Shown here: positions 7,837 to 64,000 of the stretch, one piece after another
Numbering within the stretch: the stretch's first letter is position 1
How the letters are laid out: every line of letters begins with the position of its first letter
Assembly (NCBI GenBank): GCA_027364735.1
Contig: DAHXOT010000008.1
Location: 1 to 64,000 of the forward strand
Source of the DNA: Hydrotalea sp.
Lineage (GTDB): Bacteria > Bacteroidota > Bacteroidia > Chitinophagales > Chitinophagaceae
Direction: 5' to 3'
DNA length: 64,000 bases
Notes under the pieces: generated by a model
The model's database searches: none
What the model saw: the letters and a program-made list of their open reading frames with translations, nothing else
What the model was told of the DNA's origin: nothing
Program-made: the position numbers and the translations under genes

Positions 7837-8523
7837 ATGTTTTCAATTGCAATTGTTGACGATCATTTGCCTACAATAGAACGGTTAAATGAATATTTTA
7901 AAACAAAATGGAACGCTTCGGTTTTATATGCACATGAAAACGGGTACGATTTTTTAAGAGCACTTACTCAAAAAAAACAAATACCCGACCTTATTTTAAC
8001 CGATATTAATATGCCTATTATTGATGGAATTTCTTTAACTCATTTTATAAAACTCAATTATCCATCTGTCAAAATTATTTGTACATCGGTATTCGATGAG
8101 CCTAAATTATTAAAAACTGCATTTGCATCGGGTGTAGATGCTTATATATTAAAAGCTGCTATAGAAATGCATTTTCATTTTGCATGGGAAGCTATACAAA
8201 AGAATGAAATTTTTATTGATCACTTTGCCGTAATTGGTATGGAAGATATTTTGCCGTATAACGAAAAAAGTAAAATAATGCTTTCGCCCAATCAGCCGTA
8301 TAATTTAACATTGGCAGAAAGAATATTTATTATACTATCTTCTACACGAAAACTTTTAAGCTTTGAGCAAATTGCTGAATTAATGCAAGTAGATACGGCA
8401 ACTATTGAATCTTATTTTAAAGTAGTTAAAAATAAATTAGCCATTTCTACAAGAGATGATTTGGAATTTTTTTCTTTGAAAAAAGGATTAACGTTAAATA
8501 CGATGCCTTACGCCGTTGCATAG
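7837..8523 (+). CDS. Orphan response regulator with LuxR-type output domain
   Basis: Residues 1-120 form a receiver domain with an intact phospho-relay set: acidic pair Asp8-Asp9, phospho-acceptor Asp56 in LTDINMP, Thr83/Ser84 and Lys106. The C-terminal region (about 150-215) is a divergent LuxR/NarL-like helix-turn-helix: LTLAERIFIIL, then FEQIAELMQVDTATIESYFK. No histidine kinase gene is nearby. The start is the ATG at 7837, two codons inside an in-frame TTG at 7831, because MFSIAIVDDH is the standard receiver start. The target genes are unknown. Confidence 0.85.
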   Translation: MFSIAIVDDHLPTIERLNEYFKTKWNASVLYAHENGYDFLRALTQKKQIPDLILTDINMPIIDGISLTHFIKLNYPSVKIICTSVFDEPKLLKTAFASGVDAYILKAAIEMHFHFAWEAIQKNEIFIDHFAVIGMEDILPYNEKSKIMLSPNQPYNLTLAERIFIILSSTRKLLSFEQIAELMQVDTATIESYFKVVKNKLAISTRDDLEFFSLKKGLTLNTMPYAVA

Positions 8524-62293: not shown

Positions 62294-62647
62294 CGTTAGG
62301 TATTTAACATAAAAATAAAAATATTTATCGTATCATTTTTTTAAAACAATATTTTTAGTAATACTATTTTATCTTATAAAAGCAGTTAATTATAGCCAAC
62401 TAAAATATAATGCTTAGTGTTACTGCTTTTTAAGCGTATAATTATTTATAAAAGCTTTGCATATTTTGTAAAAAATATATTTTATTTTCTTCTAAAAGGC
62501 TTGTTATAACGCAGTAAATGGTATAAATACCCCCTTTCGAGTACGGGGAAAATACGGGGCACTTACGGGGAATTTCCCGTTATACAACTTTAGTGGTAGC
62601 CATAGGTTTGCAGTATCAATCAATCTTTAACCTCAAACTCATTCAAA
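62294..62647. other. Intergenic region with phased ACGGGG repeats and a promoter box
   Basis: These 354 bases hold no gene. The nagB side (62294-62520) is A/T-rich and I recognise nothing in it. The right part holds TACCCCC (62528-62534), three ACGGGG copies (62543, 62554, 62565), the near-palindrome ACGGGGAATTTCCCGT (62565-62580) and a -7 box TAGGTTTG (62603-62610). The first HTH gene starts at 62648. Confidence 0.6.
62528..62580 (+). promoter_or_regulatory. Phased ACGGGG direct repeats, probable activator site
   Basis: ACGGGG occurs at 62543-62548, 62554-62559 and 62565-62570, exactly 11 bp apart, so the copies face the same side of the helix. An inverted copy lies on each flank (CCCC at 62531-62534; CCCGT at 62576-62580). 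The G-run repeats stand out sharply in an AT-rich gap. They end 32 bp before the -7 box TAGGTTTG (62603-62610), which lacks a -33 TTTG, the layout of an activator-dependent promoter. Confidence 0.6.
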
Positions 62648-62860
62648 ATGCAACACCAAAACGCTGCAAGCTCTTTTACACAAAGAGAATTAGAAGTAAT
62701 TAAACTTTTGTCGGTGGGTAAACTAAATAAAGAAATTGCTTATCAGCTAAATATCTCCATTAACACAGTTAAAAAATTTAATAAGCAAATTTTTAAGAAA
62801 GTAGGATATACCAGACGAGTACAAGTTGCTCAATATTTTACCGAACAAATTAGAGCCTAA
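62648..62860 (+). CDS. Stand-alone LuxR-type HTH protein
   Basis: The 70 residues are only a GerE/LuxR helix-turn-helix: FTQRELEVIKLLSVGKLNKE, then IAYQLNISINTVKKFNKQIF and KKVGYTRRVQVAQ. No receiver, autoinducer or PAS domain is attached. Standard LuxR domains have His where this has Phe in VKKFNK, otherwise it is well conserved. It probably binds DNA, perhaps as a dimer, and may be regulated by abundance or by a partner protein. A paralogue follows 118 nt downstream. Confidence 0.8.
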   Translation: MQHQNAASSFTQRELEVIKLLSVGKLNKEIAYQLNISINTVKKFNKQIFKKVGYTRRVQVAQYFTEQIRA

Positions 62861-62863
62861 TAA

Positions 62864-62921
62864 ATGGGTACACCAAAGAGGTATTGTGAAAAAATATAAT
62901 TCGATTTAGGTTTGTACCCAT
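62864..62921 (+). promoter_or_regulatory. Inverted repeat and promoter box before the second HTH gene
   Basis: A perfect 9-bp inverted repeat, ATGGGTACA (62864-62872) and TGTACCCAT (62913-62921), encloses 40 nt. Within and at its end lies TAGGTTTG (62907-62914), the same -7 octamer as upstream of the first HTH gene. A partial -33 (ATTG, 62883-62886) is 20 nt up. The repeat may be an operator or an RNA hairpin after the first gene. Confidence 0.45.
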
Positions 62922-62978
62922 AAAGAATTAGAAAAAAAGAAGTACCACTTTTTCTTAATATATCATAAATCAATCATC

Positions 62979-63176
62979 ATGGTTCAATTCAACTTAACTA
63001 AAAGAGAAAAGGAAGTATATGAGCTGTTATGTAAAGGATTATTAGATAGGGAAATTAGTGAACTGCTTCAATTGTCATTAGAAACAATAAAAAAGCATAA
63101 TAAAAATATTTACTTAAAGCTGGGGGTACGAAACAGAACGGAAGCGGTAATAACAGCAAAACGAAAAATAGTATAA
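62979..63176 (+). CDS. Second stand-alone LuxR-type HTH protein
   Basis: The 65 residues again form a bare LuxR/GerE domain: LTKREKEVYELLCKGLLDRE, then ISELLQLSLETIKKHNKNIY and LKLGVRNRTEAV. This copy is closer to the family consensus than its upstream neighbour. The two share the RExEV, LL, KKxNKxI and KxG patterns, so they are paralogues. With only a recognition domain each, they could form heterodimers or compete for sites. The next gene encodes an outer-membrane protein on the same strand. Confidence 0.8.
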   Translation: MVQFNLTKREKEVYELLCKGLLDREISELLQLSLETIKKHNKNIYLKLGVRNRTEAVITAKRKIV

Positions 63177-63238
63177 GAAGTAACAATAGCCAATTTATCA
63201 ATATGCAAAATACAAGCTTAAACCCTAAACCTTACATT

Positions 63239-64000
63239 ATGAAAGTTAGACTTTTTTTATTGCAATGCCTGATAACATTAATTTGTTTTCATGCTTACGC
63301 TCAAAAAAGATCATTAAGTAAACATTGGTCTTTTCAGCTTACTTCGGGTACACAGTTTAATTATTTTACAGGGCAACAACCTCACAGAGCAATTAGTGCC
63401 GGATTTAATTCTCAGTTACGAGTTAATTATGCATTAGAAAAAGGATGGGGTCTGTTTGCTGAAGGAGGTTATGCCGGCGATGGTGGCAATCTGGTTTCTT
63501 TTACCGATAGGACCATGTTTGGATTTGCACCTACCATTCAGTTTAAAAATACAAAAGAGAGTGTATTTCTTATTCACTCAGGAGAGGCTGCATTGGGGGT
63601 TAGTTGTGTATTACCTATAAAGTTAGACTGGAAGATAAGATTGTATACGGCGCCTTTGATTAATGTTAATTTTGGTGAGTGGGAAAACTATCAAAAAACT
63701 GGTGCATTGGTTGCGGTTGCAACCGGCGATCAAACGGTGATAAGTACCATTAATGGTCATCAATATACCAATTACTTTCAGCCTTATTGGTTTAGTGCTA
63801 TGGGTGGTATTCAGTTAGAATTGCCCATTCACAGAAATGCAGTTTTAATTGATTTTAGATTTGTAAATGGAATTTCAACTGCTCGTTTTGACTATTCTTA
63901 TTTAAATACACCCGGAATACAAGGTAATATTCGTACCAACTCTTTTCGTGTAGCTGTTGGCTATTTGTTGCACGGATTTGCATCACGTAAAGCTTCTATC
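63239..64000 (+). CDS. Outer-membrane beta-barrel protein (3' end outside window)
   Basis: The reading frame is open from the ATG at 63239 to the window end (254 codons). The start was chosen because it yields a signal peptide (MKVRLFLLQCLITLICFHAY, then AQ). An ATG at 63203 in frame would add 12 residues in front. The mature part alternates as in an outer-membrane barrel, with Gly/aromatic strands (FQLTSGTQFNYFTGQQ, GWGLFAEGGYAGDGG, YWFSAMGGIQLELPI, FRVAVGYLLHGFA). No function can be assigned. Confidence 0.75.
   Translation, partial: MKVRLFLLQCLITLICFHAYAQKRSLSKHWSFQLTSGTQFNYFTGQQPHRAISAGFNSQLRVNYALEKGWGLFAEGGYAGDGGNLVSFTDRTMFGFAPTIQFKNTKESVFLIHSGEAALGVSCVLPIKLDWKIRLYTAPLINVNFGEWENYQKTGALVAVATGDQTVISTINGHQYTNYFQPYWFSAMGGIQLELPIHRNAVLIDFRFVNGISTARFDYSYLNTPGIQGNIRTNSFRVAVGYLLHGFASRKASI

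Follow-up and report, generated by a model that had tools for sequence, protein, structure and literature searches.

Three ACGGGG repeats in front of two small helix-turn-helix (HTH) genes probably form, judging from the sequence evidence, a class-II operator for a NarL/FixJ response regulator, which would drive the HTH genes. The repeats lie near the end of the window, the whole 64,000-nucleotide stretch of DNA analysed here. This reading is based on the anatomy of the site, its recurrence in related genomes, a 22-bp spacing rule between site and promoter, and the co-occurrence and adjacency of the site with genes for regulators of this type. Sequence alone yields a half-site, a likely regulator with a short target list, and the spacing rule (palindrome, 22 bp, TAnnTTTG). 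Orphan HTH-only genes would thereby be tied to a two-component system, and a group of unclassified CPPxC-tailed proteins that travel with a kinase and a regulator is brought to attention. Few transcription-factor sites of defined geometry appear to have been described for Bacteroidota sigma-A promoters.

Anatomy of the repeat array and its promoter

The three ACGGGG copies occupy positions 62543–62548, 62554–62559 and 62565–62570 on the forward strand and follow one another in exact 11-bp steps, as described in an earlier note on this DNA. The third copy faces an inverted CCCGT (62576–62580) and forms with it a 16-bp near-palindrome, ACGGG-N6-CCCGT (ACGGGGAATTTCCCGT; 62565–62580, without strand assignment), which is the predicted operator. 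Upstream of the palindrome, the half-sites are direct and the 11-bp lattice is kept. Inverted copies had been claimed as flanks of the array; the downstream one is present, but upstream there is only a degenerate half-site, CCCCCTT by sequence (62530–62536, reverse strand), whose CCCTT (62532–62536) falls by arithmetic on the lattice position 11 bp ahead of the first ACGGG. With its two inverted half-sites, ACGGGGAATTTCCCGT has the form of a NarL-type palindromic operator, as expected of a dimer site. NarL itself recognizes the heptamer TACYNMT in a 7-2-7 arrangement. This arrangement was not found at the window operator; the half-site is ACGGG, and the operator is therefore NarL-like rather than a NarL site.

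A predicted Bacteroidota sigma-A −7 box, TAGGTTTG (62603–62610, forward strand; consensus TAnnTTTG), lies 32 bp past the third ACGGGG copy and 22 bp past the CCCGT, and no TTG was seen by eye at the −33 position of this promoter. Both the 32-bp placement of the box and the missing −33 partner agree with the earlier description. In Flavobacterium psychrophilum, according to PMC9723704, the −7 consensus TAnnTTTG spans −12 to −5. The transcription start (+1) predicted from the −7 box is at about 62615 on the forward strand. Relative to this start, the near-palindrome is centred at −42.5, a class-II position (such sites overlap the upstream promoter element and have their centre near −41.5 to −44.5).

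The earlier note had also called such G-runs rare. The hexamer ACGGGG alone is not below chance in the window (5 matches against a shuffle mean of 6.7), but the triple arrangement is unusual: among perfect triples of 6-mers that contain three or more different bases, at spacings of 7–39 bp, the array is the sole case in 64 kb, counted in two overlapping registers, TACGGG and ACGGGG. The GC content is 32% for the window and 27% for 62300–62650. An RNA-level reading of the array was rejected, as no unusual fold is predicted (z 0.29).

Genes downstream of the array

The gene downstream had been called HTH-only, and this holds for two consecutive genes on the forward strand, which encode GerE/LuxR-type proteins of 70 aa (62648–62860; Pfam PF00196, E 5e-16) and 65 aa (62979–63176; PF00196, E 4e-16). 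Both proteins fall under the curated cut-off of each of the 25 NCBIfam families among the matches listed, with PedR as a weak match. Close relatives of the first protein (HTH1) were not found in 17 searched genomes outside the genus, where the best matches share 41–45% identity over the GerE domain. The third gene (63203–64000, forward strand) continues beyond the window end, and its product had no match in a Pfam and NCBIfam search.

An intercistronic element, GGTACACCAAAG...GTTTGTAC (62859–62937, forward strand), recurs in the transcript leader at the second array of this genome (contig C6; L016:534–609), with 77% identity over 79 columns. A good fold is predicted for the window copy (z −3.3) but not for the one at C6 (z 0.96).

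A second array in the same genome and its counterpart in G001

The window's own genome (G000, 2.77 Mb) contains the window on contig C24 and one other array on contig C6, and the genome-wide scan for 11-bp ACGGGG repeats that the earlier note had proposed returns two loci in all. Without mismatch, ACGGG-N6-ACGGG occurs in the whole genome at the window array (twice) and at C6:347 and nowhere else, and ACGGGG-N5-ACGGGG occurs only at the window array; the direct triple is found only on C24 and, degenerate, on C6. Positions 335–384 of C6 read CCCGT-N7-ACGGGG-N5-ACGGGT-N5-ATGGGG-N5-CCCGT. The segment C6:369–414 consists of the near-palindrome, N22 and TATCTTTG, so that the gap to the −7 box is identical to that in the window.

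The C6 region is 94–96% identical in G001, a genome of the same genus. In the G001 orthologue, 45 bp are missing between two 11-bp repeats (TTTTTCCCGTA), and a single CCCGT, followed after 22 bp by the −7 box TATCTTTG, is still there. With 11-bp direct repeats at the ends of this 45-bp indel (L016:330–385 versus L219:2613–2623), the number of half-sites differs between the two genomes of the genus.

The HTH genes are also kept in G001 (529 bp at 94% identity; HTH1 96% identical; the second gene truncated by the contig end), and neither site nor array was found in the 400 bp upstream of them. Similarity between G001 and the window at this operon ends at 62614, one base short of the predicted +1. 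The break (window versus L018) looks as though the promoter and beyond alone had been swapped. The two genomes of the genus thus have different promoters at the HTH operon; since the G001 assembly is 86% complete and in 310 contigs, the difference may be a rearrangement or an assembly error alike. Conservation in relatives, by which the earlier note had proposed to judge the repeats, is therefore divided: the window promoter site is not in G001, but the site family recurs across a set of 195 genomes (see below). With three mismatches allowed, the N22 pattern (near-palindrome, N22, −7 box) has 8 matches in G000 and 4 in G001 against 15 and 5 for the controls, and beyond both arrays these matches are at noise level. 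One weak candidate for the pattern is apparently orthologous in the two genomes (C1:35556/C254:8907). A plasmid search with an 801-bp query gave no match.

A family-wide palindrome at a fixed distance from the −7 box

The comparison set comprises 195 genomes from one family, probably Chitinophagaceae. The exact sequence ACGGG-W6-CCCGT is found 38 times, in 27 of the 195 genomes, against 15 sites in 14 genomes for the reversed control; the window site, whose spacer starts with G, stands outside this strict W6 set. The 38 sites were picked blind to promoters, and both of their sides were scanned for TAnnTTTG. Four exact boxes lie within 60 bp of a site, three at offset 22 and one at 44. When one mismatch is allowed, 8 boxes fall at offset 22, compared with about 0.5 per other offset (Poisson ~3e-6, corrected for 60 offsets), and 9 form a second cluster at 44–45.

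The palindromes also occur in tandem. Among 62 sites, a second palindrome within 16–60 bp was counted 16 times, with each pair counted from both ends; 10 of these counts fall at 22 bp, 5 at 23 bp and 1 elsewhere. A −7 box at −12 to −5 places the centre of the proximal palindrome at −42.5 and that of the distal one at −64.5. The consensus of 24 sites selected for a box at 22 shows a weaker second palindrome 22 bp upstream. Exact half-sites sought around single palindromes gave little signal, whereas the palindrome-pair version is clear. The family norm is one palindrome or a tandem of two, and the window site is mainly a direct repeat. The N22 pattern alone has 27 matches in 21 of the 195 genomes; this count is uninformative by itself because the reversed control is as high (28).

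The direct-repeat pattern has 66 matches in 23 genomes of the family against 67 in the reversed control. Among the matches listed (L100–L175), 11-bp TACGGG tandem arrays are seen in Chitinophaga, Paraflavitalea, Paludibacteraceae, Cloacimonadota and others; most of them lie outside ORFs, and some have inverted arms. The underlying scan covered genome contigs; 39 loci of Bacteroidota/Cloacimonadota type were examined among at least 80, and many listed rows are GC-rich Streptomyces. By a rough ORF caller, 12 of these 39 arrays lie inside an ORF (among the matches listed), and the genes flanking the arrays are mixed in orientation. The TACGGG arrays were set aside as a separate phenomenon, since they are no commoner than the reversed control and their flanking genes show no single orientation.

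A NarL/FixJ regulator encoded beside the site

Genes for GerE proteins are enriched around the site. Of 55 site loci (the 38 W6 sites and the N22 matches outside G000), 14 encode a GerE protein within 5 kb, compared with 2 of 40 control loci (two-sided p 0.011); 41 site loci have no such gene in this range. Control stretches 20–30 kb away were taken for 40 of the 55 loci, the other 15 being mostly on short contigs, with a few omitted by choice. A (V/I)DGYR recognition helix is found at 12 of the 55 site loci, all among the 14 with a GerE gene, and at none of the 40 controls. A VDGYR profile (14 of 55 versus 1 of 40) was built partly from site-locus regulators, and the counts quoted here are therefore those of the generic GerE profile and of the helix motif. 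By gene sizes, at least 8 of the 14 GerE genes (in L346, L350, L356, L365, L368, L382, L383 and L392) close an operon of the same plan: a small protein, a protein of ~200–230 aa, one of ~260 aa, and the regulator. The 200–230-aa protein is 178 aa in L346 and, by the rough caller, 75 aa in L392. Except in the G001 and G000 modules, proteins are called membrane protein or kinase here by their size and position. Seven of the 14 GerE proteins belong to one clade, with receivers 57–72% identical to that of the regulator beside the C6 array, which served as the query.

The regulator beside the C6 array is encoded at G000:C40:1671. It consists of a receiver followed by a GerE domain (Response_reg, Pfam PF00072, 80.9 bits; GerE, PF00196, 43.5 bits), and among solved structures its sequence scores best with NarL (1a04). 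Its operon is divided in G000 between the starts of C6 and C40, which join at about G001:C90:3884, and was read via the G001 orthologue; C40 maps at 96% to the G001 contig of the operon. The order is CPPxC-tailed protein, membrane protein, histidine kinase and, as the last known gene, regulator. What is left of the array in G001:C90 has a divergent outer-membrane gene on one side and, on the other, the operon of a 162-aa CPPNC protein, the membrane protein, the kinase, and the regulator, and the kinase of this orthologue carries HisKA_3 and HATPase_c domains. The C40:1671 protein, whose operon has the only other array of the genome in its upstream region, is the likely regulator of the window site; because G000 also has two further paralogous kinase/regulator modules (C21 and C45), it is named here as a candidate. 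The earlier note had listed an orphan response regulator among the proteins to be assayed for binding; the one in the window (7837–8523) is only 31% identical to the receiver of the site-linked regulator and is not supported as the binder. The C-terminal helix-turn-helix of this orphan is divergent (E 2e-4 to the GerE profile).

Co-occurrence of site and regulator clade

The threshold for the clade of the site-linked regulator was fixed beforehand from the receiver comparison, and the clade is present in 30 of the 195 genomes. It is found in 14 of the 27 genomes with an exact site (4.2 expected, p 1e-6), being missing from the other 13, and in 13 of the 21 genomes with an N22 site (3.2 expected, p 2e-7). 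The corresponding reversed-pattern controls give 2 of 14 (p 0.67) and 5 of 25 (p 0.33). Removal of the window's genus leaves 14 of 27 (p 4e-7) and 12 of 20 (p 5e-7), and p stays below 1e-5 at two stricter clade cut-offs. Related genomes are not independent, and a test by genus, a partial correction, gives 12 of 25 against 5.2 expected (p 3e-4) and 12 of 20 against 4.2 expected (p 1e-5).

Regulator operons were also approached without regard to sites. Clade regulators occur at 32 places; 7 of these were already site-linked, and 19 others outside the genus were taken blind to sites, with G143 (two places), G004 and G144 outside this sample. Nine of the 19 operons have a site 0.9–3.2 kb upstream of the regulator gene and 4 to 170 bp ahead of the operon's first ORF. 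A site was defined here by at least 8 of 10 half-site letters, the nine including degenerate ones (8 or 9 of 10), and intergenic by not lying within a same-strand ORF of more than 150 aa; short ORFs of 62 and 82 aa overlap the sites in L479 and L488. The other 10 operons have no recognizable site in the expected place. In L482 (G007), 70 bp before the operon's first gene, the site is ACGGGGAATTTCCCGT, identical to the window 16-mer. A −7 box at 22 or 44 is absent from L481, L482 and L485. A looser count of any site-like match gives 11 of 19 regulator loci versus 5 of 40 longer controls (one-sided p 5e-4).

Proposed mechanism and alternatives

In the proposed mechanism, ACGGG would be the half-site and two facing copies (ACGGG-N6-CCCGT) would accommodate a dimer, further half-sites sharing the 11-bp lattice. 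The palindrome is centred where the missing −33 element would be, and the regulator would therefore substitute for this element: a phosphorylated dimer at −42.5 would stand in its place and bring RNA polymerase to the promoter (class-II activation). Cooperative binding of extra monomers or dimers, all on one face of the helix, may take place at the two ACGGGG copies further upstream. In the window, the regulated genes would be those of the two GerE proteins that lack any other domain, together with the third gene without a family match, and the HTH proteins would then form a second tier. We infer binding itself, its dependence on phosphorylation, activation over repression, and the role of the HTH-only proteins as second-tier regulators.

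The earlier note had proposed that the LuxR-type genes are controlled either by their own products or by a response regulator. Autoregulation is common among LuxR-type proteins, and the GerE genes lie directly downstream of the array; moreover, in G144 an 81-aa GerE-only protein (L382:8780–9025) is encoded ~3.7 kb off a site, a second HTH-only gene near such a site. Binding of the array by the HTH-only proteins, with autoregulation of their operon, is nevertheless unlikely: in one relative, G001, these proteins are kept without the upstream site, and exact sites are spread over the family although close relatives of HTH1 were absent from the genomes searched outside the genus. The part of the proposal that we retain as most likely is control by a response regulator, to which the family motif, the fixed 22 bp, the co-occurrence and the NarL/FixJ adjacency all point. 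The same regulator could instead block RNA polymerase at −42.5 and act as a repressor, and position alone cannot tell activation from repression. We regard this as quite improbable, because the lack of a −33 element and the preferred 22 bp (with alternatives at 44–45) suit activator geometry better, and because NarL activates E. coli ogt from −44.5, −67.5 or −77.5 (PMC7419079).

There is little chance that the array arose by spread or slippage of a repeat and has no regulatory role. Its likeness to the 11-bp TACGGG arrays of other Bacteroidota and further groups, with their mixed flanking orientation, would suit such an origin, and the 45-bp indel between 11-bp repeats in the G001 C6 orthologue means that copy number does change. 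Against this, the array is confined to two loci in the genome, both 22 bp from a −7 box, and the palindromic form has the 22-bp rule and the regulator linkage family-wide. PhoB/OmpR boxes are 11-bp direct repeats, and PhoB binds pho boxes head to tail. Three direct copies at 11 bp match this geometry, and a winged-helix regulator of the OmpR/PhoB type would bind them head to tail as 7-bp TACGGGG units with 4-bp spacers. This is very improbable indeed: direct repeats are not the conserved form of the site, the promoter- and regulator-linked form being palindromic family-wide and linked to GerE-domain NarL/FixJ regulators.

Relation to known systems

For the preferred reading, a class-II operator of a NarL/FixJ regulator, activation by NarL at E. 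coli ogt is a worked precedent. The linked regulator shares with E. coli NarL the Response_reg and GerE domains, as well as being closest by score to the solved NarL structure, and the operator resembles NarL operators in its palindrome of ~16 bp, and in the proposed activation near −44.5 and at more distant upstream positions (PMC7419079). It differs from the heptamer palindromes of NarL in its ACGGG half-site, in the 11-bp lattice, and in tandem palindromes at 22 bp. Further differences are that the Bacteroidota promoter here is without a −33/−35-type element, that a CPPxC-tailed small protein and a membrane protein are linked to the system, and that no nitrate sensor was seen. LuxR and TraR class-II boxes are centred near −42.5. 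The site resembles them in the GerE domain of its regulator and in a palindrome over the upstream promoter element with the same centre, but the linked regulator has a phospho-receiver and no autoinducer domain. As in PhoB/OmpR boxes, 11-bp direct repeats would take the place of a missing upstream promoter element, although the site here is palindromic across the family and linked to GerE proteins. The HTH proteins resemble HTH-only regulators of the GerE/PedR type in being stand-alone GerE domains of 65–70 aa; they differ in falling below the NCBIfam cut-offs and in being the regulated partner in the proposed reading.

Neither the site nor the kinase/regulator module was described in the titles and abstract starts among the matches listed from the open literature, and the site in five spellings gave no match in 5.39 million open-access papers (subscription journals lie outside this coverage). 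The operator is NarL-like in form, and the CPPxC-tailed proteins are the stranger part of the system.

CPPxC-tailed proteins

Many kinase/regulator modules begin with a gene whose product has a C-terminal Cys-(0–2)-Pro-Pro-(0–2)-Cys motif, such as CPYPPGC, CPPNC or LCPPYC. Genes of this kind are L442:3627–4115, L441:3513–3998, and those in L346, L350, L368, L392, L474, L481, L484, L487, L488 and L492; the L477, L479 and L482 modules open with a gene of ~200 aa that lacks the tail. CPPxC-like tails end 16 ORFs in 80 loci, 13 of which belong to modules, a pair of orthologues among them, while the other 3 appear spurious, against a single ORF in 40 control loci. Four such proteins from different modules (L442, L441, L346 and L368) had no Pfam or NCBIfam match. 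We consider it conceivable, though rather doubtful, that the operator belongs to an undescribed signalling circuit of CPPxC protein, unclassified membrane protein, kinase and NarL-type regulator, with feedback on the circuit's own promoter and genus-specific recruitment of the remote HTH operon as a second tier. The CPPxC-tailed protein is possibly an exported or modified peptide signal.
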